Source: Streptomyces sp. T12 (GTDB lineage Bacteria > Actinomycetota > Actinomycetes > Streptomycetales > Streptomycetaceae). From it: 64,000 nucleotides of DNA. Of the stretch, positions 17,214 through 46,568 are shown in pieces. The stretch lies in assembly GCF_028736035.1 (NCBI RefSeq), contig NZ_CP117866.1, positions 10,705,001 through 10,769,000 on the forward strand. Reading direction: 5' to 3'. The first letter of the stretch is position 1. The number at the start of each line of letters is the position of its first letter. The position numbers were made by a program, and so were the translations under genes. A model generated the notes under the pieces. It was given only the letters and a program-made list of their open reading frames with translations. It had not been told where the DNA came from and ran no database searches.

Positions 17214-17262
17214 TTTAACACCAGTTATCCGACAGGCCGGAGTGTCAGTGGAGAAGTTTGTA

Positions 17263-22200: not shown

Positions 22201-22460
22201 GCCTGCGGCTCCGCAGTGGGCAGTCCGGAGACCGCCTGCCACAGGCTGCCCGCCGTGGCGAAGGTGATCGGCTGCAGCAACTCGTCCGGAATCTCCACGT
22301 CGTAGTTCTCCTCCAGCATGAGCAGCAGTTCGACGCTGGCCATCGAGTCCAGTCCTGCCGCTGCCAGGTCCAGGTCGGCTCGCAGCGGTTCACCGTCCGA
22401 CAGGGTGCGCAGCACAGAGCGCAGGATGGACTCGAACGCCGAGTCCCAGGGGGCCGTCAT
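22197..22460 (-). CDS. Acyl/peptidyl carrier protein
   Basis: 87 residues with the carrier-protein signature AAGLDSMASVELLLMLEENYDVEIPDELL. Ser39 (in LDSM) is the site for 4'-phosphopantetheine. It overlaps genes on both sides by 4 bp, which ties it to the decarboxylase and the dehydrogenase. Likely loaded by the AMP-dependent ligase of the same operon. Confidence 0.93.
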   Translation of the reverse strand: MTAPWDSAFESILRSVLRTLSDGEPLRADLDLAAAGLDSMASVELLLMLEENYDVEIPDELLQPITFATAGSLWQAVSGLPTAEPQA

Positions 22461-25278: not shown

Positions 25279-25994
25279 CGGCGCTCACCTCGCGCGGCCG
25301 CTGCGGACGGGGTGTCCGTGAGCAACCCCGCCTCCAGCGCGAACACGGCGGCAGCCGTGCGGTTGGGCGTTCCCAGTTTCAACAGGATGTTGCCCACGAG
25401 CCGCTTGACGCCATGGTCGGAAATGCCGAGCTGCCGCGCTATCTGCTTGTTGCTCAGCCCCTCCGTCAGGTGCACCAGGGTCTCCCGCTCGCGTGCCGTG
25501 AGCGGGGACAGCGGGAACCGGCCCCGGCCGGGCTCCTCCAGGGAGGCGACAAGCCGCCTGCCCAGCCGGAGTGGCATCGGCATCTCGTTCCTGGCGAGTT
25601 GGGCCAAGGCCCGGTCCAGGGTCTGCTCGGTCACTTCCTCCCGCAGCAGAAAGCCGTCGGCCGGCAGGGTGTTCAGCGGTGTCGTCGAGGTCAGCTGTGA
25701 CTCGTCGAGCAGGACCAGAACCCGCGGTGCCGGGCCGGAACGTCCAGACAGGCAGGCACGCAGCGCGGCACTCTGGGAGCCCGAGACGACCAGCACGTCC
25801 GTCTGCCCCTGCGACAGGACGCGCGACAGTTCGGCGAGAGTGGCACAGCTGTGGGCGAGCCGGACGATCGCCAGCTCGCTCAGCTGCTTCTGGAGCCCCT
25901 TCCGCAGAAGTTCGTCCTCGACGAAGAGCGAGACGTGCAGGGTGTCCTGCTCGGCAATGGCCGGCGTGTTCGCCAGCGACGTTCCGTGTTTCAT
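25275..25994 (-). CDS. LuxR-type response-regulator-like transcription factor
   Basis: 239 residues from the ATG at 25994, which overlaps the nitroreductase stop (ATGA). The C-terminal LuxR helix-turn-helix is at ~165-225: LTARERETLVHLTEGLSNKQIARQLGISDHGVKRLVGNILLKLGTPNRTAAAVFAL. The N-terminal ~120 residues look like a degenerate receiver (LFVEDELLRKGLQKQL), without a clear phospho-Asp. No partner kinase is nearby. It lies inside the RiPP operon, so it is presumably cluster-specific and autoregulated. Confidence 0.88.
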   Translation of the reverse strand: MKHGTSLANTPAIAEQDTLHVSLFVEDELLRKGLQKQLSELAIVRLAHSCATLAELSRVLSQGQTDVLVVSGSQSAALRACLSGRSGPAPRVLVLLDESQLTSTTPLNTLPADGFLLREEVTEQTLDRALAQLARNEMPMPLRLGRRLVASLEEPGRGRFPLSPLTARERETLVHLTEGLSNKQIARQLGISDHGVKRLVGNILLKLGTPNRTAAAVFALEAGLLTDTPSAAAARGERR

Positions 25995-26671
25995 TCTGCG
26001 ATCGCCTTGGTGAGAAGGGAGCTTGACTTCGGGTTCGGTAGCCCCACTGACAGGCCGATGAGTGGCGCGCGGGTGACATGGTCGAAGCGCAGGGCGGTGC
26101 GCCCCGCGAGAGTGGGGCCGTAGAAGAGGCACGACTCCAGACCCGCTGTCGCGGCCGCCATGTGCGCCCGGTAGGCCGACCGTCCGGCCAGGTGGTAGAG
26201 CGGGGCGGCGGACCTCCCTTCCGGGACGAGCAGGTTCGCCATGGCGACGACGATCACGGGAGCGAAGTGAATCTCGCGCTGCGGCCATGCCTCGGCACCC
26301 GGGACGGGCCCTACTCGGTGCAGCCTCAAGCCGCCGTCCGACAGCGCCTCGACGTGGTACGAGCCGACGGCGAGGCCCTGCGCGCGCCGGACGACCACGG
26401 CCCAGCCCAACAGCGGGGTCAACCTCAGGGCGGCCGAGAGCACTGCCGAGACCGCCGCCGCCGGGACCTCCTGCTTCGCGTAGAGCCGCGTCGACCGCCG
26501 ATCGGCGAGGGCGGCGGGCAACGGCACCGCCGGGTCAGCGGGCGTCGGGAGCGGCACCGGCGTGTCCCCCCGTTCCGGCAAGCAGGGCGGCAGACCGTCC
26601 GTACCGGCCGCGCCCGCCCGCGGATCCCGCGCCTCCTCCAGGGCCTGCGCGAACTGCGGATACCCCGTCAT
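25991..26671 (-). CDS. Nitroreductase-like protein (azoline dehydrogenase half)
   Basis: 226 residues. DRRSTRLYAKQEVPAAAVSAVLSAAL matches the RRSxRxF...L opening of FMN nitroreductases and SagB-type azoline dehydrogenases, followed by GSYHVEA and a C-terminal part with YRAHMAAATAGLESCLFYG. In RiPP pathways these enzymes oxidise (methyl)oxazolines or thiazolines to the aromatic azoles. It is separated by one base from the E1/SagB-like fusion, whose C-terminal domain looks like the complementary nitroreductase domain, so the two may form one flavoenzyme. FMN use is inferred. Confidence 0.75.
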   Translation of the reverse strand: MTGYPQFAQALEEARDPRAGAAGTDGLPPCLPERGDTPVPLPTPADPAVPLPAALADRRSTRLYAKQEVPAAAVSAVLSAALRLTPLLGWAVVVRRAQGLAVGSYHVEALSDGGLRLHRVGPVPGAEAWPQREIHFAPVIVVAMANLLVPEGRSAAPLYHLAGRSAYRAHMAAATAGLESCLFYGPTLAGRTALRFDHVTRAPLIGLSVGLPNPKSSSLLTKAIAE

Positions 26672-26672: not shown

Positions 26673-28319
26673 TCACTCGCTCCCCGTGTGGATGTCCGGC
26701 AGTTCGACCAGCCCGGCCAGGAGCAGCTGCCGCGACAGCCGCGGAACCGCGTCGAAGAACTCCCCGGCGCACACGGGAGAAGACAGGCGTGCTGTGATCG
26801 TCCGGGCCTCGCAGACCATCAACAGGTGTTCGAGGGTCACGCCGGCGTCGAGTCGGCCGATGTGCGGGGCCCGGGGACCGTACTTGCTCTCCAGCGGCTC
26901 GATGTCGACCACCTGGAGAACGCAGGTCGTGTCGCCCGCCGACGCCCGGAGCAGGTCGTGCGCCCCGTGCGGGACCTCCAGCCGGCACAACGCGTCGATC
27001 TGCGGCTCGTAACTGTGCAGACCGGCCCGCTCCGAACCCCATATCGACTCCGGCAACCAGACCAGCGCCCGCGGTGAGCCGATGTTTCCGCCGGTCGGCG
27101 GATAGCGGCGCAGAGTGCCGGGCCGTAGTCCGTAGGTCTCGGTCAGGAGGGCGCTCAACCGCGCCCACGGCCCGTGCTCGATCACGGCCGGCTCGCGGAC
27201 GTCGGTGCTCCACAACGCCGTCTCATCGACACACAGCCGTCGTGGCACCTGGGCCAGCATGTTCGCGGCGGTGTAGTGACCGTACTGGGCCCGGCCTCCG
27301 TGCAGGTCCTCCGGAAGCCCGGCGACCGCGTACTCGTACACATGGGCCGATGCCATCGGCGTGTCCCGCACCGGTCCCTCGGATACGCACCGACGGCAGT
27401 CGGCAGCCGGGCTGACCGACCGCACGGTGATGCCGTCCTCGACGTCTCCCAGACCGATGATCTGGCGCACGGTGGAGGGATGGCCGACGCCCGCCATCAG
27501 AGCGAGACACTCGGCCGCGACGTAGGCGGCCACGACATCGGTGCGCGTCTCCCGTTCGACAAGGGTGTCGGTGTTCTCGGGGGCCGGTGGCTCCTCCTGC
27601 CCGGCCCGATCGGGCAGGGCCCGTCGGGCGCAGCCGAGGCACGGAAACAGACTCCTGTCGAGCAGCGGGCCCAGGAAGGCGCCGTCCTCGCTTTCGAGAA
27701 CGACAAGCCAGCGCCCTCCCGACACGGCCATGGCGTCGTCGAGGGCGATGAGCTCCGCCGGATCGGCGGCCCACGGTTTGATGACGACGGTCAGGTCGGC
27801 CGTACCGTCCAGGTCGATGGTGTCGGGGCTGCCGAAGGCACTCGTCCGCACCGTCAGGCCGTGCTCCGTCAGCAGGTCGCCGACCCGGGAGTGCAGTCCG
27901 CCGTTGCCGATCAGCCGGATCACCTGGTTCTGCAGGCACCGCACCACTGCCCGGCCACTGGAGTGGAGGCCCGTGTCGGCGGTGGCCCGCGCGTACCAGT
28001 CGGACAACGGGGTGTCCGGGATGTCCTCGCAACCGGCCAGATCCTCCAGGACTCCGATGGAATCCAGCTGCCGCAGCGCCTTGTGCAGGACGGCCTCCGA
28101 GCAGGCCGCGGCCGCGGCGAGCTCGGTCTGGTCGGCCCGGCCCGTCATGGCGGAGAGCAGGGGCACGAGCAGTCGGCCGACGTGCCGCCCACGGACATAG
28201 TGCGTCCGGTTGGCCCCCCGGACGACCATGGCATCGTTCTCCAGGGCCCATGTCACCCCCGGCCTGAGTCGAGGCTTCAACGGCAGTTCGGGCAGGCTCA
28301 GATCGATTGCGTCCGTCAT
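26673..28319 (-). CDS. E1-like RiPP leader-binding/cyclodehydratase partner fused to a SagB-like domain
   Basis: 548 residues, ATG overlapping the preceding stop. The N-terminal ~20-95 region (LKPRLRPGVTWALENDAMVV, then VLHKALRQLDSIGVLEDL) has the winged-helix shape of a RiPP recognition element. A degenerate E1/ThiF-like part follows, with two CxxC pairs (Cys227/Cys230 in FPCLGC; Cys308/Cys311 in DCRRC) that should hold a structural zinc, as in azoline-forming cyclodehydratases. Residues ~340-548 resemble a SagB/nitroreductase domain: RRYPPTGGNIGSPRALV and AGLHSYEPQIDALCRLE. It should bind the precursor leader and present the core to the YcaO protein encoded two genes upstream. Confidence 0.82.
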   Translation of the reverse strand: MTDAIDLSLPELPLKPRLRPGVTWALENDAMVVRGANRTHYVRGRHVGRLLVPLLSAMTGRADQTELAAAAACSEAVLHKALRQLDSIGVLEDLAGCEDIPDTPLSDWYARATADTGLHSSGRAVVRCLQNQVIRLIGNGGLHSRVGDLLTEHGLTVRTSAFGSPDTIDLDGTADLTVVIKPWAADPAELIALDDAMAVSGGRWLVVLESEDGAFLGPLLDRSLFPCLGCARRALPDRAGQEEPPAPENTDTLVERETRTDVVAAYVAAECLALMAGVGHPSTVRQIIGLGDVEDGITVRSVSPAADCRRCVSEGPVRDTPMASAHVYEYAVAGLPEDLHGGRAQYGHYTAANMLAQVPRRLCVDETALWSTDVREPAVIEHGPWARLSALLTETYGLRPGTLRRYPPTGGNIGSPRALVWLPESIWGSERAGLHSYEPQIDALCRLEVPHGAHDLLRASAGDTTCVLQVVDIEPLESKYGPRAPHIGRLDAGVTLEHLLMVCEARTITARLSSPVCAGEFFDAVPRLSRQLLLAGLVELPDIHTGSE

Positions 28320-28915
28320 GAGACCTCCCTGGCCGAGGCGTCCCGACCGCCCGTGCACCGACGGCAGTACGGCATCGGCAGGATGTGCAGAGCGCGCGCG
28401 CCGTGGGGTGGCAACTCCACGTGCCAGGCCAGCCCAGCAGGGGCACCGTCGCGCCCCGTGCGGAGTGCCATGCGTATCACCAGCGCGGCCGCGGCCCTCG
28501 CCGACAACGGGCTCACCCCGGACACCCCGGAGGGCCTGCCATCGGTGGCGAAGAACGGTTTCAGTCCCCACTGGTGCTGGTCACTGCGTTGCAACAGGCA
28601 GGAAACGCAGGGTTGTCCGGCGTCCCGAAGCGGGCCGACCAAGAGACCGTGAGGACTGCTCAGCACAGGGAGCGTCCATGTGCCCGCCGACTGCGCCTCG
28701 TGTTCGTCGGCGCTGAGTGCCGATACGGGAGACGCGGAGGCCTCGACAACCAGAGTTGGACTGCCGGAACCCTGGGCGGGGCGACGTCCGGGCACCTCAT
28801 GGCGCTGCAGGTACGCGGCCACGAGATCGGCCACCTGCTGTCCGAAGGCGTCCTGTGCCGTGCACCGCACGACGGGCAGCACGCTGTTGCGGCGACCGGG
28901 GTCTTCTTGGAGCAT
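28316..28915 (-). CDS. Small E1-like zinc protein of the azoline RiPP type
   Basis: 199 residues. LLVGPLRDAGQPCVSCLLQRSD (Cys103, Cys106) followed later by MPYCRRCTGG (Cys184, Cys187) is the zinc-tetrathiolate layout of the ocin-ThiF/E1-like partner of YcaO cyclodehydratases, but the N-terminal leader-binding part is missing. It therefore looks like a second, shortened paralogue of the E1-like protein encoded just downstream (4-bp overlap). It starts 8 bp after the YcaO gene. The function is probably structural or regulatory in the cyclodehydratase complex; inferred. Confidence 0.7.
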   Translation of the reverse strand: MLQEDPGRRNSVLPVVRCTAQDAFGQQVADLVAAYLQRHEVPGRRPAQGSGSPTLVVEASASPVSALSADEHEAQSAGTWTLPVLSSPHGLLVGPLRDAGQPCVSCLLQRSDQHQWGLKPFFATDGRPSGVSGVSPLSARAAAALVIRMALRTGRDGAPAGLAWHVELPPHGARALHILPMPYCRRCTGGRDASAREVS

Positions 28916-28923: not shown

Positions 28924-30219
28924 TCAGGCCAGGGGACAGGGCATCGGATTCACCTCGGCGAGCGGCACTCCGGTGCGACGGAGGCGGTCGCTCGCGAGGT
29001 ATCGCGCCGCGAACACGGGGGACAGTGGTTGGAGGGAGGGAATGATCGCCCGCACGACGCGAACGCCGGACGGGGCGACGTCGCGCGGTGTCAGATCCAC
29101 CGCGTAGATCTCGTGCCCGGCCTCGATCAGCCGGCGGACAGGATCGGAACCGGGCGTCAGGTTCCGGGACGGCTCCGTGGCGTCGTCCGGCCTGGAGCCG
29201 CCCAGAAAGTCGAAGTAGTGAGCCATGCTCTCCGGTGCCATGAAGAGGGCGCCGTCATGGACGCGTCGGCATCGGACCGGGCTCCTGGGCGCCCGGTCTC
29301 CCGCGCGCACGGAGGCTTCCAGACCCGCGTGGATCTGGGCTGCCTCCGCAGCGCTCGCCGCGGAGGCAGCCCATAGTGTCCGGCGTGCCGCGGCTCCGAC
29401 GACCTGGTGCACGCTGCGTCCGGGGCCACGTAGGACCGAGAGCACGGTGGGGATACCGAGGTCACTGGTGATGTCCCAGCGGGCGAGGGTGTACTCCCGC
29501 AAGTGCTCGGCGGAGTACGGCAGTCGGGCTTCCGGTTCCGCTCCCGAGGGATCGCCGAATCCGTCCGGCAGCCTCTCCGCGGGGGTTCGCAGAAGCCAGG
29601 TGAGCGCGACCGCGTCACGCTCGACGACCTCGAGCACCGCGTTCTCCAGCGCCTGCGCCCAGGACAGGTGCGCGGCGGTGCCGGTGGAGACGGGCACCCA
29701 GAACTCCTCCCCGGGGTACCGGGGCGCGGTGTTGAACGCCATGACCGTCGGTACGTACACCACGGCCCCGTCCCCGCAGCGAGTCGCACGTACCCAACGC
29801 ACCCGGTCCCGGTCGCCGAGCACGCCATGCGTGCCTGAGCGCGGGCCAGGCTCCCCCGGGTCGTGGCGGGGCAGGACCCGCGTGGGGAGCGCGCCCGGCC
29901 CCAGTTCGACCGCTGACGCAACTGTCGACAGCTGTTCGGCACAGGTGACGGAGGCATAGCGTTCCACCGCTTCCATCCGTGCTTTGAGGGTGGCCAAGGC
30001 AGGGTCCGGGTCGCTGGCCGCGCCATGCAGGATCTCGGCACAGCCCAGGCTGTCCACAGGCGGCCGGTTTCCGGTCGCCGCCCGGTGCAGCCCAGCGCTT
30101 ACCACGACGGTGTGCCGGTCGCCGTACGCGGTATGGCCACCCCGCGGCGGCGACAGCACACCGTTGAGCAACTCCGCGAGCCGGGAAGCCCCGGCGTGTG
30201 ATTCGCGCATCGCGGTCAC
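28924..30219 (-). CDS. YcaO-family cyclodehydratase
   Basis: 431 residues from a GTG overlapping the glycosyltransferase stop (GTGA). YcaO enzymes use ATP to phosphorylate the backbone amide and form azolines from Cys, Ser or Thr. ATP/Mg motifs are present: TLKARMEAVERYAS (Glu83, Glu86 at ~79-90) and ALENAVLEVVERDAVALTW. The C-terminus ends EVNPMPCPLA, close to the proline-rich PxPxP tail found in azoline-forming members. The precursor core has no Cys or Ser but two Thr per repeat, so methyloxazoline formation from Thr is the expected reaction. Confidence 0.92.
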   Translation of the reverse strand: MTAMRESHAGASRLAELLNGVLSPPRGGHTAYGDRHTVVVSAGLHRAATGNRPPVDSLGCAEILHGAASDPDPALATLKARMEAVERYASVTCAEQLSTVASAVELGPGALPTRVLPRHDPGEPGPRSGTHGVLGDRDRVRWVRATRCGDGAVVYVPTVMAFNTAPRYPGEEFWVPVSTGTAAHLSWAQALENAVLEVVERDAVALTWLLRTPAERLPDGFGDPSGAEPEARLPYSAEHLREYTLARWDITSDLGIPTVLSVLRGPGRSVHQVVGAAARRTLWAASAASAAEAAQIHAGLEASVRAGDRAPRSPVRCRRVHDGALFMAPESMAHYFDFLGGSRPDDATEPSRNLTPGSDPVRRLIEAGHEIYAVDLTPRDVAPSGVRVVRAIIPSLQPLSPVFAARYLASDRLRRTGVPLAEVNPMPCPLA

Positions 30220-31019
30220 CTCTGCACGAGCAGCGGCCAGGCGTCGACGCCATGGCGGTCCATGACGTCGGTCACCACTTCCAGGTAGACGGCAGCTCGG
30301 GCGCAGCGGTCGCCGAGCCGATCCGCCCCGTACCGCTGTTCCACACCCAGCCCGGCGTAGATGGCGGGATGCGGTACTTCAGTGATCGAGAAACGACCGG
30401 CCAGACCGAGCAGCAGCAGGATTTCCAGCGTGCTCCCGTATTCCCGCACCTGGATCCGCGGGGCCAGGAACTCCATCGCCGTACGGCCCATGGCCCAGCA
30501 GCCGGAGATGACGTCGGTCATCGCCAGACCGCAGACCTGCTGGACTAGGGACCGGAACATGACGTTGAGCGCGATGCGGTCGGTGGGCGGCGCGGCGACG
30601 ACGTGGGACAGCGGGTGGTAGCGGGATCCCAGCACCAGGTCGGCTCCGGCCCGCTGCTGCGCCAGGAGTTCCCGCAGCACGGCGGGATCGTGCTGGCCGT
30701 CGCCGTCGATCCGGGTGACGACGTCGTAGCCGTGGTCCATGGCGTACTCGATGCCGTGCCGTACCGCCGATCCCACGCCCCGCGGCACGCCGACGGAGGT
30801 CACCCGGCCGGGAAAGGCCGAGGCGCTGAAAGCGTTGCCGCCCGCGTCGAGCACGAGTACATCGGTGTCGAGCGCGTCCAGGACGGAGCCGACCACACCG
30901 GACACCCGGCCGGACTCGGCCAGTGCCGGGACCAGCACCAGTGCCCGAGGAGCCGGAGTGCCGTTCGCCGGGGTGCCGCGGTCGGCGGCGGAGAGGCTCG
31001 TCATGCCGAGCTGGGTCAC
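30216..31019 (-). CDS. GT2-family glycosyltransferase
   Basis: 267 residues, GTG start one base after the methyltransferase stop. GT-A fold features: ALVLVPALAESGRVSGVVGSVLDAL, RGVGSAVRHGIEYA, the metal-binding DxD-like VVTRIDGDGQHDP, and LVLGSRYHP, as in dolichol-phosphate-mannose-synthase-like enzymes. No membrane segments are visible, so it is a soluble enzyme. Placed between tailoring genes of the RiPP operon, it may glycosylate the peptide (Tyr or Thr) or a lipid carrier; the substrate is unknown. Confidence 0.86.
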   Translation of the reverse strand: MTQLGMTSLSAADRGTPANGTPAPRALVLVPALAESGRVSGVVGSVLDALDTDVLVLDAGGNAFSASAFPGRVTSVGVPRGVGSAVRHGIEYAMDHGYDVVTRIDGDGQHDPAVLRELLAQQRAGADLVLGSRYHPLSHVVAAPPTDRIALNVMFRSLVQQVCGLAMTDVISGCWAMGRTAMEFLAPRIQVREYGSTLEILLLLGLAGRFSITEVPHPAIYAGLGVEQRYGADRLGDRCARAAVYLEVVTDVMDRHGVDAWPLLVQR

Positions 31020-31020: not shown

Positions 31021-31785
31021 TCAGACCCACCCCTCCACGACGTAGCGGTTCCAACGGCGGGCCCAGCGTTCCAGCCGGGGCATCGCCGGGCGTTCCACCG
31101 CGTCGATCCACGGCAGGCGCTCTCCCTGGACCCGGACCAGGCCGGCCCGGCGCATGGCGTTGGCGACCGGCAGCACAGACGTGGCCCGCTTCAGCGGCTG
31201 CTCGTGGAGGGGGATCTTCGGGAAGTCACCGTCATGGCTGTCACCGCTGCCGATCAGCGGGTTGAGCAGGTCGGCCAGCTCCCGGACGCCCTGGCGCACG
31301 GGGTGCACCCGGGGGCGCAGCTGGTCGATCACAATGATCTTCCCGCCCGGACGGCACACTTCTCTCCAGCGGCGCAGCACCTCCTCGGGGTAGGGGAGGG
31401 CCCACAACAGATGTCGGCAGACGACCACGTCGAACTGCGCGTTCGCCAGTTCGCCGAGCATGGCGTCGGTGTGCACGAACGAGATGTTCAGGTCCCGCGC
31501 GGATTGCTTGGCCTTGCGGGCGGCCACCTCCAGCATCGCTTCGGAGTAGTCGGCGCCGGTCACTTCATGGCCCAGCTCGGCCACCAGGAGGGCGATCATG
31601 CCGGTCCCGGTACCGACGTCGAGGACCTTGAGCGGTGTCTCCTGAGCGGGCAGGAGACGCCGCAGGAGCAGCAGCCAGGCGGTGCGCTCCGCTTCCGAGT
31701 GGAGGCCGTGCCCGTACAGGGAGTCGTAACCCTGGGCGGACTGGCCCCACGCGGTCCGGAATGCCGACCACAGGTCTTGTGACAC
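31021..31785 (-). CDS. SAM-dependent methyltransferase
   Basis: 254 residues from the GTG at 31785 with GAAAGG upstream; the longer open frame is rejected because its N-terminus is Pro/Cys-rich noise. Class I motif I is KVLDVGTGTGMIALLVAELGHEVTGADYSEAML (~50-82), followed by FDVVVCRHLLWALPYPEEVLRRWREVCRPGGKIIVID. Likely an N-, O- or C-terminal methylation of the peptide or its appended group; target unknown. Confidence 0.9.
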   Translation of the reverse strand: MSQDLWSAFRTAWGQSAQGYDSLYGHGLHSEAERTAWLLLLRRLLPAQETPLKVLDVGTGTGMIALLVAELGHEVTGADYSEAMLEVAARKAKQSARDLNISFVHTDAMLGELANAQFDVVVCRHLLWALPYPEEVLRRWREVCRPGGKIIVIDQLRPRVHPVRQGVRELADLLNPLIGSGDSHDGDFPKIPLHEQPLKRATSVLPVANAMRRAGLVRVQGERLPWIDAVERPAMPRLERWARRWNRYVVEGWV

Positions 31786-31813
31786 CGGGAAAACCTTTCG
31801 GTAGCGCGACGGT

Positions 31814-33328
31814 TCAGCCGCGGGAGCCGTACACCGGAACGAACAGGGGCAGCAGACGCAGAGCCGAGGAGGGGGGAAGGCGCCGGCGGTCGTCGGGGGT
31901 GAGGAGGGCATGTCCGCCGAGATAGGTCCCGCCTCGGAAGTAGGCGGCGAGCTTCAGCGTTCCGGAGACCGGTGACGGTTCCCCGTCGGCGTCCAAGACG
32001 GGGAAGGTGAACCGGCTTTGGCGGACCCGCTCCTGGAGCAGCAGCCCCTCGTGGTGCGAGGCCGTGAGTGAGTCGGTGAGCTCTGCCCTTTCGCCGGCCG
32101 ACGCAGGCCGGCTGGTCATCTTCAGCCCCGCACCGCCCGTGGAGTCCGCCCGCTTCAGCACGGCCCCGTCGAGATCACCGGGCCGACGCTCACGCACCGA
32201 GAACCGGGTGGGCGCCACTCGTTCCCCGTCGACGACCCGAAGAGTGGGCGGGATGCGGGACATCAGGTACGACCGGTCCGCTTCGCCGTGCAGGGCGCGG
32301 AATCTGTGCGCGAACTCCTCGTCGTGCCAGTAGTGCATCCAGGCGTGGCTTTCCAGATACATGTGGAACCCGGGAGCCATACGGACGGCACCCGACCGCC
32401 AGGCGTCCGTGAGGTGCTGGAACGCCTGGGCCTCACGCAGCCTCACGGCCGCGGTCGCCGCGTGTTTGGTCGTCGCCCGGACCTGCCGGACGACCCGCTG
32501 GACCCTGTCGCCGGAGCCGTCGGTCAGCCGTCCCTCGACGAACCGCAGTTCGTCGAGAGAGGTGAGCCGGGCCCGGGTGCCGTTGCGCCGCAGTGCGGAC
32601 ACCACAGCCTGCGCGTCGGGCACCAGGGCGTGCCCGGACCGGACGACGTAGTCGATCACGCCCGTGCCGGGAGCGGGGTCCGGCAGTCCGTCGGCGATGC
32701 CCCGCGCCCAGGCGTCGAGGTCGAAGGAACCGAGGAGCGCGTCCGGGCCCCAGACGAGCTCAGAGTAGGCGGCATAGGCCTGCTGGATCTCGGCCGTGAC
32801 GCCGGCCATGCCGGCCATGAGGTTGATGTCCACCAGCCAAGGGACGATCTCGGTGCCGTTCTGTTCGAGAAGGAGGTCCAGCCGGAAGAGAGGCGCGTCG
32901 CCGAGCGGGTACGCCTGCCGGGGGTCGAAGTGCTCGCCTTCCGCTTTCGGCGACCGGAAGATGAACGAACGTATGTCCCCGCAGGCCACGAGGGTGTCCC
33001 ACGAGCAGCGGAGAGCGTCGGGCACCAGGGCGCCGATGTTCCGCACCTCCGAGATCAGCCGGGCGGGCAGCACGATGGGAGCGAGAGAGACGGGCCAGGG
33101 CACGTCAATATGTCCGATGCCGGGCTGCGGGGCCCTGCAGGGAGACGCGGCGAGCAGGTCACGCACCACCGGCTTGTCGGAGAGTCCCTCGGAGACACGG
33201 TATTTCGCCGAGGCGGCGTTCAGTCGTTCCGTGAGGAGTTCGCGGTGTGCAGCTTGGAACACGGAAGAAGGGAGTGGAAGGGAAATAGGGTCGGGCGCTG
33301 TTCCGGTGACCCAAGATGTTTTCTTCAC
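31814..33328 (-). CDS. ATP-grasp-like (glutathionylspermidine-synthase-like) protein
   Basis: About 504 residues if the GTG at 33328 is used; in-frame starts at 33412 and 33424 fall inside a strong hairpin and lack a ribosome site. PLFRLDLLLEQNG followed by WLVDINLMAGMAGVTAEIQ, and GAVLKRADSTGGAGLKMTS followed by HHEGLLLQERVRQ, resemble the substrate/ATP-binding part of circularly permuted ATP-grasp and glutathionylspermidine-synthase-like ligases (VLKP..G.GG.G.. then ..QE). It is the first gene after the precursor, which argues for a direct role on the peptide, perhaps amide-bond formation with the carrier-derived amine. No closer family assignment is possible. Confidence 0.6.
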   Translation of the reverse strand: MKKTSWVTGTAPDPISLPLPSSVFQAAHRELLTERLNAASAKYRVSEGLSDKPVVRDLLAASPCRAPQPGIGHIDVPWPVSLAPIVLPARLISEVRNIGALVPDALRCSWDTLVACGDIRSFIFRSPKAEGEHFDPRQAYPLGDAPLFRLDLLLEQNGTEIVPWLVDINLMAGMAGVTAEIQQAYAAYSELVWGPDALLGSFDLDAWARGIADGLPDPAPGTGVIDYVVRSGHALVPDAQAVVSALRRNGTRARLTSLDELRFVEGRLTDGSGDRVQRVVRQVRATTKHAATAAVRLREAQAFQHLTDAWRSGAVRMAPGFHMYLESHAWMHYWHDEEFAHRFRALHGEADRSYLMSRIPPTLRVVDGERVAPTRFSVRERRPGDLDGAVLKRADSTGGAGLKMTSRPASAGERAELTDSLTASHHEGLLLQERVRQSRFTFPVLDADGEPSPVSGTLKLAAYFRGGTYLGGHALLTPDDRRRLPPSSALRLLPLFVPVYGSRG

Positions 33329-33368: not shown

Positions 33369-33418
33369 CGGGGTATGGCGCCGAACGCTCTGATGCCGGT
33401 GTCCGACGCCATACCCCG
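33369..33418 (-). terminator. 12-bp-stem hairpin between precursor and biosynthetic genes
   Basis: CGGGGTATGGCG (33369-33380) and CGCCATACCCCG (33407-33418) are perfect 12-bp complements with a 26-nt loop. It lies 20 bp after the precursor stop and has no clear U-run, so it is more likely an attenuator or an RNA-processing/stabilising hairpin that makes the precursor mRNA more abundant than the downstream enzymes. Confidence 0.6.
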
Positions 33419-33437: not shown

Positions 33438-33641
33438 TCAGACGGTCGGAGCGTACGTGCCGAGCTGGGTCGGGGCGTACGTACCGAGCTGCGTCGGAGC
33501 GTACGTACCGAGCTGCGTCGGAGCGTAGGTGCCCAGCTGCGTCGGAGCGTAGGTGCCCAGCTGAGTCGATGCTTCCTCGGCCACGGTGGTGCCGCCGTCC
33601 AGGTAGAGCTCCAGCTCTTCAATCTCAAGCAAGGCTTCCAT
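33438..33641 (-). CDS. RiPP precursor peptide with five TQLGTYAP core repeats
   Basis: 67 residues, ATG with AAAGGA at good spacing. A 25-residue acidic leader (MEALLEIEELELYLDGG, then TTVAEEAS) is followed by five identical 8-residue units TQLGTYAP (residues 26-65) and a final Thr-Val. The leader is Leu/Glu-rich like those recognised by E1-like/RRE proteins of azole RiPPs. The core lacks Cys and Ser; each unit has two Thr that could become methyloxazol(in)es (Pro-Thr and Gly-Thr sites), and one Tyr. The gene heads an operon with YcaO, E1-like and nitroreductase genes. Repeated cores imply several product molecules per precursor and a protease that cuts between units. Confidence 0.9.
   Translation of the reverse strand: MEALLEIEELELYLDGGTTVAEEASTQLGTYAPTQLGTYAPTQLGTYAPTQLGTYAPTQLGTYAPTV
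33447..33566 (-). repeat. Five tandem 24-bp repeats coding for TQLGTYAP
   Basis: Five in-frame 24-bp units, identical in protein but with scattered silent differences (for example TAC CGT-side changes between units 1-3 and 4-5 such as GTACGT against GTAGGT on the plus strand). Silent divergence with fixed protein sequence points to selection on the repeat unit after duplication. Confidence 0.95.
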
Positions 33642-33974: not shown

Positions 33975-34104
33975 AGATGTTCTTCCGGCCCACCGGTCCG
34001 AGCAGACCGTGCAGCTCTTCCGACCTACGGGCGTCGATCAAAAGCTGCATGTCTGCGTCCGCCATGAGAAACGAACGGACGCAAGGCGGGCCAGGCAAGA
34101 AACC

Positions 34105-34141
34105 GGCAACTCAACCTGGAGGTAAATGCCGGGCAATTGCC
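34105..34141. promoter_or_regulatory. Further heptamer copies, including a perfect GGCAATTGCC palindrome
   Basis: GGCAACT at 34105-34111 and the perfect 10-bp palindrome GGCAATTGCC at 34132-34141 extend the array at 33875-33974 towards the rightward operon, whose first gene starts about 150 bp downstream. They share the TTGCC/GGCAA core. Confidence 0.45.
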
Positions 34142-34294
34142 TGGAGCGACTCCGGGACGCACGGCAGTATCAAGGGCGGTCTGCTGCTAGCGCCCTTATG
34201 GGAGAGCCGTCAAGAAGCCGGTCGTACGGCCGGCTCGGTGACGCCCGCGTGCACCCGAGTCCGCCGAATAGCTACGCACAGGCAGGAGCAAGCA

Positions 34295-35641
34295 CTGAGT
34301 ACGAGACGCACTGGGACGCTGCACCTCAATGTCTTCCTTCACAACGTGGGCCATCACGAGTCGGCCTGGCGGCTGCCGGAGAGCAATCCCGTCGCGGACA
34401 CGGATATCGATCACTACAGGGACCTGGCGGTCATCGCGGAACGGGGGAAGTTCGACTCGGTCTTCCTGGCTGACAATCCCAAGCTCACCACGGACATCCG
34501 CCGGCGTCCCTCCGGAACACTGGAGCCGACCGTCGTCCTGACGGCGCTGGCCGGGGTGACCCGGCGCATTGGGCTCATCGCCACGGCCTCGACCACCTAC
34601 AACGACCCGTACAACCTCGCGCGCCGGTTCGCGTCCGTCGACCACATCAGCTCCGGACGTGCCGGATGGAACATCGTCACCAGCTCCGGGGCGGCGGCCG
34701 CCCGCAACTTCGGCCTCGACGACTCGCCCCCGCACCATGAACGGTACGCGCGGGCCGCGGAGTTCGTGGAAGTCGCTCTGCGGCTGTGGGACAGCTGGGA
34801 GGACGATACGGTCGTCGCGGACAAGGTGCGCGGCGTCTGGGGGGACGGGGCGAAGATCCACCCCGCGGCCCATGCCGGGAAGTTCTTCCGGGTCGAGGGC
34901 GCGCTCAACGTACCCCGCTGCCCTCAGGGATCCCCCTTGCTCGTCCAGGCCGGCTCCTCGGAAGACGGACGCGCTTTCGCCGCCCGGTACGCCGAAGCGG
35001 TCTTCACGGCTCAACAGACCTTGGAGGAGGCGCAGCGGTTCTACGCCGACATGACCAAGCGAGTGGCGCGGGCCGGCCGCGACCCCGGCATGGTCAAGAT
35101 CCTTCCCGGTCTCGTCCCGGTCGTCGGATCCACAGAGAGCGAGGCCCAGGAGCGGGCCGATGAGCTCGATCGGCTCATTCTTCCCGAGTACGCCAAACTC
35201 CAGCTCGCCTCCCGGCTCCGGCTGTCTCCGGACGAGCTCCACCTGGACCGCGAGTTGCCGGCGAATCTCCCCCAGGAGAGCGAGATCGAGGACGTCAAGA
35301 GCCGCTTCACCCTGATCGTCGACCTCGCCCGGCGGGAACGCCTGACCGTCCGTCAACTCATTGAGCGTCTCGGGCCGGGGCGGGGCCACCGAACCCTGGT
35401 CGGTACCGCGGAGAGCATCGCCGACTCGATGCAGCACTGGTTCGACAACCGTGCCGCCGACGGGTTCAACCTCATGCCCGCAGTGATGCCCTCCGGACTT
35501 GAGGTGTTCGTCGACCAAGTCGTACCGATCCTTCAGGACCGTGGCATCTTCCGCCGTGACTACGAGGGCAGCACGCTACGCGAGCACTATGGCCTCTCTC
35601 GACCGGCCAACCGCTTCGCGCCCGATCGGGCCCACTTGTGA
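34295..35641 (+). CDS. NtaA/SnaA/DszA-type FMN-dependent monooxygenase
   Basis: 448 residues if translation starts at the CTG at 34295 (GGAG at 6-bp spacing; protein then begins STRRTGTLHLNVFLHNVGHHE, the usual family N-terminus). A GTG at 34238 is the alternative. Luciferase-like flavin monooxygenase features: LHLNVFLHNVGHHESAWRLP, FDSVFLADNP, GRAGWNIVTSSG, ARNFGLDDSPPHHERYARAAEFVEVALRLWDSW. These two-component enzymes hydroxylate or cleave with reduced FMN supplied by a separate reductase, which is not seen here. It overlaps the next gene start (GTGA) and opens the rightward operon. Confidence 0.9.
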   Translation: MSTRRTGTLHLNVFLHNVGHHESAWRLPESNPVADTDIDHYRDLAVIAERGKFDSVFLADNPKLTTDIRRRPSGTLEPTVVLTALAGVTRRIGLIATASTTYNDPYNLARRFASVDHISSGRAGWNIVTSSGAAAARNFGLDDSPPHHERYARAAEFVEVALRLWDSWEDDTVVADKVRGVWGDGAKIHPAAHAGKFFRVEGALNVPRCPQGSPLLVQAGSSEDGRAFAARYAEAVFTAQQTLEEAQRFYADMTKRVARAGRDPGMVKILPGLVPVVGSTESEAQERADELDRLILPEYAKLQLASRLRLSPDELHLDRELPANLPQESEIEDVKSRFTLIVDLARRERLTVRQLIERLGPGRGHRTLVGTAESIADSMQHWFDNRAADGFNLMPAVMPSGLEVFVDQVVPILQDRGIFRRDYEGSTLREHYGLSRPANRFAPDRAHL

Positions 35642-37281
35642 CCACCGGCTCTCCGATACCGGAGCTCGACCCCGGCACCGCGCTGCGGTTCGCGGTACTG
35701 ACCGATGCCGCCGCCCCGCGTCACTGGCACACTCAGTGCCTTCAAGGGCTGGTGGCCCAGGGGGAAACCTGTGTGGCGCTGCTCCGGGTCGCAGCACCCT
35801 CTACAAGGCGTGGGCGCACCGGCGTCCTCCACGATCCGGCGAGGCGGTCGGTGGCGCTCGCCGACGCGGATCCCGACGCTTTCGCATGTCCCGCCTGCGA
35901 CGTCGAAGCGGGCGAAGTGGCGGCCCGTCTGGCCGAGCACGACCTCGACTTCGTCCTTGACCTGCGCGAGCGGCACCAGGACATCACGTTCCAGGTGCCG
36001 GTCCACGGCGTGTGGCGATTCTCGTTCCCCACGCGCCCGGCACGGATGGCCGCACATGCACTGCTCGACGGCGACCTGACGATAACCGCGGCCTTGATCC
36101 GCACCACCGTGGACGGGGAGAGCCGGGCGCTCGTGGACGGGAAGTACGGCGTCGTAGCCGCCTCGGTCGCCGGAACGACCGACCGTGTCCTGCGCGGAGC
36201 AGCCGGCTTCCCGTCCCGGGCCGCGCGCGCCGTCCGGCTCAGGCTGCCGCATCCGGCGGCCGCGCATGACCGAGGACAGGTCTCCCCTGCAACGGCCACG
36301 CTCGGCTTTCTGCGGCGCGTCCGCCTCGCCGTCACCCTGGTGAGCAGGCGCTGTGCCAAGGCGCTGCGGGACGCCGTCACCGAGACGTACTGGTCGATCG
36401 GCGTGGTGAAGGCGCCGGTCGAGAACGTCATGGACGGATCGGTGACGGGCGACCACTTCCACTGGCATCCGGGAACCCGGCCTGACACCTACGTCGCGGA
36501 CCCGATCCCGCTGCCGGGCGACCCCGGCGTGGTGTACGCCGAAGAGTTCGACCACATGACCCGTCGCGGCCGGCTGATCGCGACGACGTACTCGGAGACG
36601 GAGGGCTGGTCGGGCTCGGAGGTGGTCGCACAGGAGACGTTCCACATGTCGTACCCCTATCTCTTCGAGCACCACGGCGAGACGCTCTGTGTCCCGGAGA
36701 CCGGATGGAACAACGCGGTGTCGGTCTACCGCCTTAAGGACCCTCCGCGCCTGGAGAAGGACCGCGACCTCCTCACCGGAGTGGCCGCCGGTGACCCCAC
36801 GGTCTTCCGGTGGGACGGCCGTTGGTGGATGTTCTACACGGACTGTTTCGAACCACGGGACACGGACCTGTACATCTGGTACGCCTCCACCCCCTGGGGG
36901 CCTTGGCGCCCGCACCTGCGCAACCCTGTCAAGAGCGATGTCACCTCCAGCCGTCCGGCCGGGGCACCGTTCGTACGCGACGGAAGACTGCTGCGCCCCG
37001 CCCAGGACGACGCCGGGCGGTACGGCTGGCGGATGGTCGTCAACGAGGTCGTGAGGCTGAGCCCGAGCGAGTTCGCGGAAGTCGAAGTCACCCGGATCGG
37101 ACCCTTCGCAAGCGGCCCCTACCCGGTGGGGCCGCACACTCTCTCGGTGGCCGGCCCCCATGTGTACGTCGACGGTAAGCGCAGCGTCGTCTCGCTCTCC
37201 CTGAAGGCCCGTCGGCTGCTCGGGCGCCTGCGCGCACGACCCGCCGGTCGCCGCCACGACTCCGCATCGAAGGGACACTGA
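35638..37281 (+). CDS. GINT1-like / formyltransferase-like sugar-transfer protein
   Basis: 547 residues from a GTG overlapping the monooxygenase stop. The N-terminal ~200 residues (RFAVLTDAAAPRHWHTQCLQGLV, then LDFVLDLRER) look like the methionyl-tRNA-formyltransferase-like fold used in polysaccharide enzymes; the C-terminal half (WHPGTRPDTYVADPIPLPGDPGVVYAEEFDH, AAGDPTVFRWDGRWWMFYTDCFEPRDTDLYIWYASTPWGPW) resembles the five-bladed propeller of the glucosamine-inositolphosphorylceramide-transferase N-terminal family and GH43-like proteins. Role in glycan or glycolipid building is plausible from its neighbours (nucleotide-sugar dehydrogenase, phosphatase); exact reaction unknown. Confidence 0.65.
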   Translation: MTTGSPIPELDPGTALRFAVLTDAAAPRHWHTQCLQGLVAQGETCVALLRVAAPSTRRGRTGVLHDPARRSVALADADPDAFACPACDVEAGEVAARLAEHDLDFVLDLRERHQDITFQVPVHGVWRFSFPTRPARMAAHALLDGDLTITAALIRTTVDGESRALVDGKYGVVAASVAGTTDRVLRGAAGFPSRAARAVRLRLPHPAAAHDRGQVSPATATLGFLRRVRLAVTLVSRRCAKALRDAVTETYWSIGVVKAPVENVMDGSVTGDHFHWHPGTRPDTYVADPIPLPGDPGVVYAEEFDHMTRRGRLIATTYSETEGWSGSEVVAQETFHMSYPYLFEHHGETLCVPETGWNNAVSVYRLKDPPRLEKDRDLLTGVAAGDPTVFRWDGRWWMFYTDCFEPRDTDLYIWYASTPWGPWRPHLRNPVKSDVTSSRPAGAPFVRDGRLLRPAQDDAGRYGWRMVVNEVVRLSPSEFAEVEVTRIGPFASGPYPVGPHTLSVAGPHVYVDGKRSVVSLSLKARRLLGRLRARPAGRRHDSASKGH

Positions 37282-37283: not shown

Positions 37284-39059
37284 GTGGAGCCCATGGTGCC
37301 GATCTCGGCCGCCCTCCCCGGCGGCGTGACAGAGATCGGGCTCGGATACCTGCCCGGCAGCACGACTCCGTCCAGGCCGCACGACTGGCGGTCGGGGAGC
37401 CTGCTTCTCGACCCCGATGTCCTGTTGTCCGTCTCGTACTGGTCCGGGCAAGCAGAGATCATCCGCCGCGGTGCCCCGGCCCGCCGGAAGATCGTCGCGG
37501 GACTGACCGGGCCCCGGGGCGTCGCGCGTTGTGCCGAAGGACTGGCCGTCGTCGCACAACCGGAGATCGGCAGGCTGACGCGCATCGACGGCGACGGCCG
37601 GATCCACGGTCACCTGGACCTGCCGGGGATCTCCCCGTGGTTCGCCTGCCAGTGGCAGGACCGGTGGCTGGTCAGCGACGACACGCGTAAGGCGGTGCTT
37701 CTGGTGTCCGCGGACGGCCGCACCGCCGACCGGCTTCCCGCCCCGTTCACCCTACGGTCCGTGCGCTCGGCCGTCCCGGTCGATGACAGGCACTACCTGC
37801 TGTGCGACCGGGAGAGCCAGAGCGTCGTCGTCGTCTCCCTGACCGGCGAGGTGGTGTGGCAGTACGGGCGCAGCAACCACCCCTCGTCGGAGGAGGGGTG
37901 CCTCACCAGCCCGGAGCACGCCATCCCGCTGCCCTCCGGAGTCGTGATCGCGGACACACGCAATCACCGGGTGCTCTTCGTGGACTGGAACGGCAAACTT
38001 GTCTGGTCGCTCGGAGGGGTGGGCAGGGTGGGAAGCGGACCGGGCCGTCTGTGGCATCCGACATCCGTCTCCGCCCGCGGATCCCTGCTTCTGATCACCG
38101 ATACGGGCAACGACCGCATCCTTGAGGCGGATCTGGACGGCAGGGTCACCGCCGTCCACGGTGACAGCCGGGTGGAGGCAGGGGTGTTCCATCTGCCCCG
38201 CTCTCTCGAGGCCACGCCCGCGGGGTATCTGGTCGCCGACTCCTACAACAACCGGGTGACCTCCTTCGGCGCGGACGGCCGCGATGTCGTCCACACGGCT
38301 TCCGCCCTCGGCCGAAACCTGTTCTGGCCGCGGAACGCCTCGGTCATCGACGGCTCCACGGTCGTCTCCGACAGCCGCAACGGCCGGTTGCTCCTGTCGC
38401 CCGGCCATGACGCCGACGCTTGGCAGGAGTTGCGGCTATCCCTCGCCGGCAGGCCCGTCGGCCTGATCGACCCGCACGCCGTGCGCAAGAGCGGTCCGGG
38501 CTGGCTGGTCACGGACACGGGGCTCAACGCGGTGCTGCTCTTCGACCCGCGGACCGGAGAAGTGCTGCACGCCTGGTGCGGTGAGCGGACCGGAGCGGCC
38601 CTGGGCCCCGGCGAAGTGACGCTGCTGCCGCTGGACGACGTCCATGACGCCGTGATCGACGACGAGCGCACGGTCTGGTTCGCGAACACCGGCCACGACC
38701 GGATCTCCGCCCTGCCGTACGGCGAGTCCCGGCTGCGGAACATCACCCCGCGCCGGGCGGCGGGGACCGAGTCGCCTTTCATATCGCCCCGCAGCGTCGA
38801 CCTGGTCGGCGGTCAACTGCTGGTGACCGACAGCGGAAACCACCGCGTCGTCCGCTTGACGCCATCGGGAGTGGTGACCGGCGTGTACGGACGACGGCGC
38901 GGCCATGCCGTCGACAGCCTCTCGGACCCTCGCCTCGCCAGGGTCTGCCGCTCAGGTGACGTCATTTCGATTGCGGACTACCTCAACGACAGAGTGCTGC
39001 TCGTGCCCCTCGCGGCACTGCGCGAAGACGGTGACAAAGTGGGGAGTGCTGCCTCGTGA
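37284..39059 (+). CDS. NHL-repeat beta-propeller protein
   Basis: 591 residues, GTG start 2 bp after the previous stop with AGGGA upstream. Repeats of the NHL type recur: VVIADTRNHRVLFVDWNGKLVWSLGG, LLITDTGNDRILEADLDGRVTAVHG, YLVADSYNNRVTSFGADGRDVV, TVVSDSRNGRLLL, LLVTDSGNHRVVRLTPSGVVTGVYG and ISIADYLNDRVLLV. No signal peptide or membrane segment is evident, so it is probably cytoplasmic. Propellers of this kind are binding scaffolds, sometimes lyases. It overlaps the nucleotide-sugar dehydrogenase start (GTGA). The role is not known. Confidence 0.85.
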   Translation: MEPMVPISAALPGGVTEIGLGYLPGSTTPSRPHDWRSGSLLLDPDVLLSVSYWSGQAEIIRRGAPARRKIVAGLTGPRGVARCAEGLAVVAQPEIGRLTRIDGDGRIHGHLDLPGISPWFACQWQDRWLVSDDTRKAVLLVSADGRTADRLPAPFTLRSVRSAVPVDDRHYLLCDRESQSVVVVSLTGEVVWQYGRSNHPSSEEGCLTSPEHAIPLPSGVVIADTRNHRVLFVDWNGKLVWSLGGVGRVGSGPGRLWHPTSVSARGSLLLITDTGNDRILEADLDGRVTAVHGDSRVEAGVFHLPRSLEATPAGYLVADSYNNRVTSFGADGRDVVHTASALGRNLFWPRNASVIDGSTVVSDSRNGRLLLSPGHDADAWQELRLSLAGRPVGLIDPHAVRKSGPGWLVTDTGLNAVLLFDPRTGEVLHAWCGERTGAALGPGEVTLLPLDDVHDAVIDDERTVWFANTGHDRISALPYGESRLRNITPRRAAGTESPFISPRSVDLVGGQLLVTDSGNHRVVRLTPSGVVTGVYGRRRGHAVDSLSDPRLARVCRSGDVISIADYLNDRVLLVPLAALREDGDKVGSAAS

Positions 39060-40315
39060 CGGATCAGCGTCGGTTGACGGTCGTGGGTCTCGGCTATGTC
39101 GGACTGCCCCTGGTCATGGAGGCGGTGCGGGCGGGTCTGCGTGTGCACGGCCTGGACCGCGACGACACACGGGTCGCGGGGCTGGCCGAAGGGCGCAGCC
39201 ACGTCGACGACATCACGGACGAGCAGGTCGCCCAGGCCCTCGCCGATGGGTTCGTACCGACCACCGACCCCGGCTGCCTCGCCTCCGCGGACGTCGTCAT
39301 CATCTGCGTCCCCACGCCGCTGCGCGACGGCGTTCCGGATCTGGACGCCGTACGGGCGGCTACCGAACAGATCGCCCTCACCATCCGGCCGGGCACCCTC
39401 GTAGTCCTGGAGTCCACCTCCTACCCGGGCACGACGACGGAGGTGCTGCTCCCCATGCTGGAGCGGGAGGGGCTACAGGTGGGCAGCGATTTCCACCTCG
39501 CCTACTCGCCGGAGCGCATCGACCCGGGCAACCGGGAGTTCTCGCTGCGCAATACCCCGAAGGTGGTGGGAGGGGTGACACCGGCCTGCTCGGAGGCGGC
39601 AGTGCGCTTCTACGAACGCCTCGCGGACAGGGTGGTCCCGGTCAGCTCGCCCTCGGTGGCCGAGATGTCCAAGTTGCTGGAGAACACCTACCGACAGGTC
39701 AACATCGCCCTGGTCAACGAGATGGCCGTGTTCTGCCACGAGTTGGACATCGACCTGTGGGAGGCGATCGACGCGGCCGCCACCAAGCCCTTCGGCTTCC
39801 ATCCGTTCCGCCCGGGACCGGGGGTCGGCGGACACTGCATTCCGATCGACCCCAACTACCTCTCCCACAGGGTGCGCAGCCTCGGGTATCCGTTCCGTTT
39901 CGTGGAGCTGGCGCAGGAGATCAACGGGAGAATGCCCGCCTTCGTGGCCGACCGCGTGATCCGGCTGCTCAACGAGGACGGGCTCGCTCTACGGGGCTCG
40001 CGCGTGCTGCTGCTCGGGGTCACCTACAAAGCGGACATCGCGGATGACCGCGAGTCTCCGAGCCTGGTCGTCGCCGAGCGACTGCGGGCCCTCGGCGCGG
40101 AACTCTCCTACCACGACCCGTTCGTGCCCGAGTGGCACGTCGCGGGTGAGCGGCTCGTCCGGGTTCCCGACCTGATCACCGCGGTCTCCGAGGCAAAGCT
40201 GACCGTGGTGCTCCAGCACCACCGTCACTACGACCTGGACGAGATCGCCAAGCATGCGCGACGGGTGCTGGACACCCGGGGGCGCGCAGACGGCGCGAAT
40301 GTCACCAGACTCTGA
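39056..40315 (+). CDS. UDP-sugar (nucleotide-sugar) 6-dehydrogenase
   Basis: 419 residues, UDP-glucose/UDP-ManNAc/UDP-GlcNAc dehydrogenase family. NAD-binding N-terminus TVVGLGYVGLPLVMEAVRAG, CVPTPL, ESTSYPGTTTEV, the central AEMSKLLENTYRQVNIALVNEMAVF, the catalytic cysteine in GPGVGGHCIPIDPNYL (~residue 262), and the C-terminal LGVTYKADIADDRESPSLVVAERL. It oxidises the sugar C6 to a uronate. The WecC-like VGGHCIPIDP suggests a HexNAc-uronate rather than UDP-glucuronate, but this cannot be decided by eye. Co-transcribed with the flanking sugar genes. Confidence 0.92.
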   Translation: MTDQRRLTVVGLGYVGLPLVMEAVRAGLRVHGLDRDDTRVAGLAEGRSHVDDITDEQVAQALADGFVPTTDPGCLASADVVIICVPTPLRDGVPDLDAVRAATEQIALTIRPGTLVVLESTSYPGTTTEVLLPMLEREGLQVGSDFHLAYSPERIDPGNREFSLRNTPKVVGGVTPACSEAAVRFYERLADRVVPVSSPSVAEMSKLLENTYRQVNIALVNEMAVFCHELDIDLWEAIDAAATKPFGFHPFRPGPGVGGHCIPIDPNYLSHRVRSLGYPFRFVELAQEINGRMPAFVADRVIRLLNEDGLALRGSRVLLLGVTYKADIADDRESPSLVVAERLRALGAELSYHDPFVPEWHVAGERLVRVPDLITAVSEAKLTVVLQHHRHYDLDEIAKHARRVLDTRGRADGANVTRL

Positions 40316-40355
40316 CCGCTCCCCACGGGCCGCCGCCGAGAGAGGAAAGACGGAC

Positions 40356-46358: not shown

Positions 46359-46568
46359 CGCATCTCCCGTTTCGTATGCGACGCCCCGGACGTCGGGGCA
46401 CACCGCGGCCATCGTGCCGGGCGGCGGCGCGTCGCAACAGATCCTTCCGGCCGCCCATCAGAGGAGGCTCATACGGCCATGCCCGCTCGGGTACCCCGCG
46501 TTGGGCGGTGGGGAGTGGCCGAGCGTGCGTGACAGTGGCGAGCCCGGGGATGCCTGCCGAGCACGTCG

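Follow-up and report, generated by a model that had tools for sequence, protein, structure and literature searches.

A candidate multicore azol(in)e-type peptide locus with five perfect TQLGTYAP repeats in Streptomyces sp. T12

What would a streptomycete make from a short gene that encodes the same octapeptide five times in a row? The question is raised by a minus-strand open reading frame (ORF) at 33438-33641 of a 64,000-nucleotide stretch of the Streptomyces sp. T12 genome (contig NZ_CP117866.1), hereafter the window, for which an original prediction made from the letters alone had proposed the precursor of a ribosomally synthesized and post-translationally modified peptide (RiPP). Our analysis leans, by a modest degree, toward a multicore azol(in)e-type RiPP whose units would be ringed at Gly-Thr and then cut after each proline into equal peptides. 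The precursor gene is divided as follows.

33567..33641, minus strand: precursor leader, 25 residues, acidic, MEALLEIEELELYLDGGTTVAEEAS, also kept in relatives
33447..33566, minus strand: five tandem TQLGTYAP core units
33438-33446, minus strand: tail TV and stop of the precursor

A sequence check bore out the predicted ORF in its coordinates, its 67 residues, its 25-residue acidic leader (eight Asp/Glu, no Lys or Arg) and its five perfect TQLGTYAP units, and an AAAGGA stretch lies upstream of the ATG. When the five 24-base repeat units are compared, 5 of 24 columns are variable and all five fall at third codon positions (P about 0.0013 under random placement), an argument against the repeat being fortuitous or a simple repetition of DNA. 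This third-position-only variation, together with conservation in relatives, rules out a chance ORF or an antisense artefact.

Two of these relatives were reached via the neighboring ligase gene and hence independently of the repeat: Streptomyces viridochromogenes NRRL 3413, with a six-unit precursor at the same place in the row, and Streptomyces anulatus NBC_01010, with a four-unit precursor at the same place on plasmid NZ_CP108693. Frame persistence in relatives had been named beforehand as a check, and both strains keep the frame and QLGTYAP, the latter in 10 of 10 units. A protein search for the precursor, which needs shared five-residue words and so favors identical cores, returned four proteins (P0001-P0004, P0002 being the S. 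anulatus copy). Unit numbers in the six precursors range from 2 to 6 and add up to 25; residues 2-8 read QLGTYAP in all 25, and residue 1 is Thr in 20, Ala in three (unit 2 of S. viridochromogenes and two P0001 units) and Ser in two (P0004). Since residue 1 varies and Gly4-Thr5 is constant, with Thr5 present in every unit examined (25/25), Thr1 would not be a required ring site and Gly4-Thr5 would be the only conserved one. Among 394 genomes sampled around S. viridochromogenes, a partial sample in which the window genome did not surface, the precursor was found in one, S. viridochromogenes itself.

The genes that follow the precursor on the minus strand are, in order:

33370..33417, minus strand: RNA hairpin, directly 3' of the precursor stop
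31814..33262, minus strand: ATP-grasp-like ligase, predicted fold glutathione-synthetase-like (frame open as far as 33424; start placed at 33262 by comparison with relatives)
31021..31911, minus strand: S-adenosylmethionine (SAM) methyltransferase (longest frame; translation probably starts near 31794; PF08241 77.3 bits, cut-off 21.2; 84% identical in S. anulatus)
30216..31019, minus strand: family 2 glycosyltransferase (PF00535 39.6 bits, cut-off 23.3)
28924..30219, minus strand: YcaO, predicted cyclodehydratase (PF02624 155.8 bits, cut-off 25.7)
28316..28915, minus strand: leader-binding-like protein of 199 amino acids (aa) (TIGR03882 28.9 bits, cut-off 36.9)
26673..28319, minus strand: 548-aa protein, E1-like with SagB-like traces (TIGR03882 16 bits, 26 in the ortholog, below cut-off)
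25991..26671, minus strand: 226-aa nitroreductase-like protein (PF00881 E 0.021, 15.4 bits, cut-off 23.5)
25275..25994, minus strand: LuxR-type regulator (start from an ATGA overlap; PF00196 56.1 bits)

The precursor had been placed directly upstream of YcaO; the hairpin and three enzyme genes, those for the ligase, the methyltransferase and the glycosyltransferase, in fact lie between the two. The E1-like and nitroreductase neighbors do stand in the same row, although both proteins are very divergent and match below cut-offs. The row of precursor, hairpin, ligase, methyltransferase, glycosyltransferase, YcaO and leader-binding-like proteins is common to S. viridochromogenes and the S. anulatus plasmid. 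The pairing of a repeated-core RiPP precursor with YcaO is thus syntenic in two other strains, while the intervening genes, the hairpin, the oxidase and sugar genes of the opposite strand and a carrier-protein module further along had been overlooked; the earlier interpretation names the right kind of system and leaves out part of the detail. S. viridochromogenes is about 85 to 99% identical over a span that starts with the gene at 16539 and closes with the hydrolase that ends at 47276. In S. anulatus, orthologs of 61 to 84% identity cover the precursor, ligase, methyltransferase, glycosyltransferase, YcaO, accessory proteins, a flavin mononucleotide (FMN) monooxygenase and a sugar block through NTP_transf_5, and the 199-aa protein is 51% identical to its ortholog.

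The locus has two of the features expected of an azol(in)e-type RiPP, a leader with a Thr-bearing core and a YcaO family enzyme in the cluster. Partner-assisted YcaO cyclodehydratases are marked by a PxPxP end and conserved Glu, Arg and Gln, and an alignment of six YcaO sequences has conserved Glu, Arg and Gln positions, with the PxPxP end in five of the six; the motifs are compatible with a partner-assisted cyclodehydratase. The S. anulatus ortholog of the 199-aa protein exceeds the TIGR03882 cut-off (44.1 vs 36.9), while the window copy stays below it. The ortholog of the 548-aa protein matches SagB at E 0.07, below cut-off, and a sequence search of solved structures gave no match for the 548-aa protein. 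A ring-oxidising dehydrogenase may be present among these proteins, as candidates only, with family matches of E = 0.02 to 0.07. A genome profile search and Pfam scans of the window found no TfuA near the locus, the sole genome match lying on contig C2 and the window on C1. That TfuA domain (C2:62153-62509; 150.9 bits, cut-off 30) may mark another YcaO-TfuA type locus.

Given the YcaO row, the PxPxP end, the leader-binding-like partner and the lack of a nearby TfuA, the Thr-derived methyloxazol(in)es of the original prediction remain the best guess, though five of the 25 units have Ala or Ser in place of Thr1, which leaves Thr5 as the only conserved site. Alternatively, the enzyme could alter the backbone of this repeated core in another way, for example by forming an amidine ring or a thioamide. 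YcaO proteins perform all three chemistries (PMC6511847, PMC8939145; cited papers are represented here by excerpts of their text), some thioamide clusters combine a repeated core with a YcaO and an ATP-grasp ligase (PMC6511847), a TfuA is present elsewhere in the genome, and the best NCBIfam match of the window YcaO, the SagD-type TIGR03604, reaches 175.2 bits, below the cut-off of 219.25 for this azoline-type model. We consider such a change unlikely in view of the missing TfuA beside YcaO, the PxPxP end in five of six sequences, taken in the sense given above, and the leader-binding-like partner with nitroreductase-like traces.

How the units would be released is suggested by their borders. 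Across the six precursors the residues after the last unit are TV, VG, VS or IA, and the leader ends in AS, AP or ES; a cut after Pro8 would fit all six, with units then starting at the variable residue. The thiovarsolin tripeptides are excised from a longer repeat (PMC6511847), and only a short piece of each unit might likewise be the product here, the rest being degraded spacer; the variable residue 1 would suit this, as would a sub-threshold match of the 819-aa amidohydrolase (listed below) to an Xaa-Pro dipeptidase model, by which Ala-Pro may be trimmed (NF051886, C-terminal, 58.2 bits, far below the cut-off of 500). Identity at seven of eight residues in all 25 units would be needless for a spacer, which makes this reading improbable. 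Release of the whole modified array uncut, as one long multi-ring peptide, agrees with the lack of any recognised dedicated protease in a Pfam scan of 30 window proteins (E 0.001) and is very improbable, as the number of units varies from 2 to 6 while the unit is fixed, a pattern that separate products fit better. Cyanobactin clusters carry subtilisin-like PatA/PatG-type proteases; the same scan gave no match to these.

The hairpin between precursor and ligase has a stem of -38.5 kcal/mol (z -5.1), and z is -6.2 and -6.0 at the same place in S. viridochromogenes and S. anulatus, respectively. In S. anulatus all 17 pairs of the window stem are preserved, eight unchanged, four with one-sided and five with two-sided changes; slid alignments keep 29 to 39% of cells, and 19 of 500 shuffles reach the observed value, the comparison being of two sequences. 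The hairpin lacks a T-run, no promoter or terminator patterns were found on 33200-34400, and Rfam gave nothing at gathering score on 33200-34300. Its likeliest role would be to maintain an excess of precursor mRNA over enzyme mRNA. Alternatively, the site could be a DNA operator for a dimeric regulator; four of the pairs are G-U in one sequence, which is allowed in RNA and not in a DNA palindrome.

The adjacent ligase has no Pfam match up to E 10, and a sequence search against solved structures gave one row only (E 0.57). Its predicted fold matches glutathione-synthetase-like ATP-grasp structures in overall architecture, with sequence identities of 8 to 13% across the 26 top structural alignments. 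It was found in 1 of 392 genus, 1 of 394 family and 1 of 396 phylum sample genomes, each time the window's own, in overlapping samples for which only the three or four best first-look candidates per genome were scored and with S. viridochromogenes outside the genus draw; the NHL-repeat gene described below is as rare (1/392 in the genus sample). The cluster thus looks rare. A distant relative of the ligase, P0009 (419 aa, 35% identity), lies on a 7273-base contig, where its precursor and neighbors could reveal a different core.

Beyond the LuxR-type regulator the minus-strand row runs on into the carrier-protein module, as it also does in S. viridochromogenes:

23713..25278, minus strand: stand-alone adenylation enzyme, VinN/BolO-like (best chain 3wvn, E 3.8e-133)
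22457..23920, minus strand: pyridoxal phosphate (PLP) decarboxylase, BtrK-like (longest frame, within which the actual start lies; best chain 7ru7, E 3.6e-49)
22197..22460, minus strand: free-standing acyl carrier protein (best model NF005480, 52.3 bits, cut-off 72)
21025..22242, minus strand: acyl-CoA-dehydrogenase-like flavoenzyme (longest frame; PF02771, PF00441)

From the methyltransferase stop to the adenylation-enzyme start, adjacent frames overlap by four bases or are spaced 1 to 8 bases apart, and the decarboxylase and carrier protein frames overlap by four bases, the decarboxylase start not being fixed. From this tight spacing, YcaO and the carrier module very likely share one operon. 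Adenylation enzyme, PLP decarboxylase and free carrier protein standing in one row are the set that characterizes a VinN/BolO-type module. Of the 408 positions compared between the adenylation enzyme and chain 3wvn, 183 are identical. The database labels this chain only as a nonribosomal peptide synthetase (NRPS); we read it as VinN, since VinN Asp230, Ser299 and Arg331, substrate residues named in PMC7756342, line up at one offset with its residues 246, 315 and 347. The window enzyme has Asp, Thr and Arg there, two of three identical and Thr for Ser conservative. For the bolagladins, this enzyme set, including the acyl-CoA-dehydrogenase-like enzyme, has been proposed to make dehydro-beta-alanine (PMC7756342). 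Glutamate mutase E (PF06368) was not found in the window genome, a search with a weak control (1 of 14 genomes matched, none above cut-off), and aspartate is on this basis a likelier module substrate than 3-methylaspartate. S. anulatus has instead an adenylation protein, SbnA, an acyl-CoA-dehydrogenase-like protein, a carrier protein and a condensation protein, and its best matches to the window adenylation enzyme and dehydrogenase are 28% and 30% identical. A beta-amine capping unit would be available in both strains.

Taken together, a pathway can be proposed. The acidic leader would dock on the leader-binding-like proteins, and YcaO would cyclise Gly4-Thr5 of every unit to a methyloxazol(in)e, one per unit, which a SagB/nitroreductase-like protein may oxidise. 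A protease would cut after Pro8 into equal small peptides, up to five from one gene. Each freed peptide would be a substrate of the ATP-grasp-like ligase, which would build an amide bond, most simply at the Pro8 carboxylate; in the window strain and S. viridochromogenes the carrier module would provide a beta-alanyl or dehydro-beta-alanyl unit. Methyltransferase, FMN monooxygenase and sugar enzymes would decorate the product, and the hairpin would hold precursor mRNA above the level of enzyme mRNA. A bolder version, which we put forward tentatively as the less probable one, is a hybrid class: several identical methyloxazole peptides would come from a single precursor, and each would receive a carrier-built beta-alanyl/dehydro-beta-alanyl cap via a glutathione-synthetase-like ATP-grasp ligase of unnamed family. 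The module would be swapped between strains, being of aspartate type in the window and of diaminopropionate type on the S. anulatus plasmid.

Several points weigh against the multicore azol(in)e reading, in addition to the sub-cut-off SagD-type match and the lack of a recognised protease. The E1-, SagB- and nitroreductase-like assignments all come from sub-cut-off matches. The fold of the 548-aa protein is unusable (predicted local distance difference test score, pLDDT, of 33, with two near-identical sequences as input), and the fold model of the ligase is of low confidence (pLDDT 55.6). Core identity across P0001-P0004 is partly due to search selection. The carrier module, being non-orthologous in S. 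anulatus (28 to 30%), may serve a different purpose or a neighboring pathway. Product, rings, cleavage and enzyme activities are all predictions from sequence.

The cluster extends on both sides of the row described so far:

17032..21015, plus strand: two fused ATP-binding cassette (ABC) transporter halves (PF00664 and PF00005, two stretches each)
33977..35641, plus strand: FMN-dependent monooxygenase (longest frame, family match from residue 117; TIGR03860 550.8 bits, cut-off 279.7)
35638..37281, plus strand: GINT1_N-domain protein (PF24793 107 bits)
37284..39059, plus strand: NHL-repeat protein (PF01436)
39056..40315, plus strand: nucleotide-sugar dehydrogenase (TIGR03026 415.1 bits, cut-off 189.8)
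40254..42713, plus strand: 819-aa amidohydrolase (PF01979 39.8 bits)
42710..43522, plus strand: inositol-monophosphatase-like protein (PF00459 165.1 bits)
43584..44723, minus strand: NTP_transf_5 protein (PF14907 133.4 bits)
44772..46412, minus strand: second stand-alone adenylation enzyme (PF00501; best chains 8k4r and 6akd, probably VinM- and IdnL7-type)
46569..47276, minus strand: alpha/beta hydrolase (PF12697 81.3 bits; 93% identity in S. viridochromogenes)

The six plus-strand genes from the FMN monooxygenase to the inositol-phosphatase-like protein run opposite to the precursor row. That the oxidase and sugar block might be an unrelated cluster was considered and dropped, the block being kept together with the RiPP genes in both S. 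anulatus and S. viridochromogenes and its NHL gene being as rare as the ligase. On that side the alpha/beta hydrolase is the last gene in common with S. viridochromogenes. The N-terminal half of the amidohydrolase has a sub-threshold nucleoside diphosphate kinase match (24.8 bits, cut-off 27). Further on, at 48364-54358 on the minus strand, a second gene row holds a major facilitator superfamily (MFS) transporter, ATP-grasp proteins (at 49659, and at 53054 with an L-amino-acid-ligase C-terminal domain), a PLP-dependent PALP enzyme and a D-Ala-D-Ala-ligase-like protein; it looks like a small dipeptide pathway and is absent beside the S. viridochromogenes cluster within the stretch fetched.

In S. 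anulatus the cluster lies on a 292-kb linear plasmid (NZ_CP108693.1) that has several transposase genes and, in the vicinity of the cluster, a type I-E CRISPR-Cas set; such a setting suggests movement of the cluster between strains. Beyond the ABC transporter genes this plasmid carries genes for dTMP kinase and UDP-N-acetylglucosamine 1-carboxyvinyltransferase, and such extra copies of housekeeping enzymes beside the cluster can be self-resistance genes.

If the proposed reading is true, one short gene would multiply a peptide product several-fold in a streptomycete, and a fixed core in free unit number (2 to 6) would offer a natural test case for leader-guided tandem-core processing. Ribosomal peptides would also be connected to carrier-protein chemistry, through the ligase that lacks a family model and the beta-amino-acid carrier module of the same row, and the hybrid class, if true, would be the more important outcome. 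The apparent rarity of the cluster means that routine mining may have missed the product.

A literature search, with most subscription journals outside its scope, found none of QLGTYAP, TQLGTY and LGTYAP, and neither a VinN-type module in a RiPP cluster nor this core was found among the matches listed, as judged from titles and the start of abstracts. The closest resemblance is to the thiovarsolins of the Streptomyces varsoviensis var cluster (PMC6511847), which share a repeating precursor of up to five repeats with a product from each repeat, a YcaO and an ATP-grasp ligase gene, with NRPS or polyketide synthase genes beside some clusters of this type. Their repeats are imperfect, YcaO-TfuA makes a thioamide on an APR tripeptide, and their ligase, related to the pheganomycin pathway, is dispensable for thiovarsolins, as the same excerpt describes; the window has perfect units, leader-binding-like partners and a ligase of the glutathione-synthetase-like kind. 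A repeating core is common to both, and a thiovarsolin-type thioamide was rejected for the lack of TfuA at the locus.

Azol(in)e-type RiPPs (PMC4603692), with goadsporin and lactazole as further examples, likewise have a YcaO, a leader-binding-like partner and a possible dehydrogenase; unlike those in the excerpted text, the window core has neither Cys nor Ser and one conserved ring site per unit, its units are tandem and identical, and a ligase and carrier module stand in the row. Graspetides have an ATP-grasp ligase beside the precursor, some are multi-core, and one enzyme branch lies beside YcaO and TfuA (PMC8939145). Their ester or amide links to Thr, Ser or Lys need acidic side chains in the core, and TQLGTYAP, with no Asp or Glu, and no Lys either, rules out a graspetide. 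In its predicted fold the ligase resembles the Cp1B, YgiC and YjfC ATP-grasp ligases, which form amides between carboxylates and amines and which the excerpt of PMC12568646 does not present as RiPP enzymes; YgiC and YjfC are peptide-spermidine ligases by the title of a reference in that paper. The carrier module, finally, has the adenylation enzyme, PLP decarboxylase and free carrier protein of VinN/VinO/VinL (vicenistatin, PMC11284099) and of BolO/BolN/BolC/BolQ (bolagladins, PMC7756342), and shares the acyl-CoA-dehydrogenase-like enzyme with the bolagladin set. Those modules serve polyketide or nonribosomal assembly lines according to the excerpts, whereas the module of the window sits in a RiPP row.
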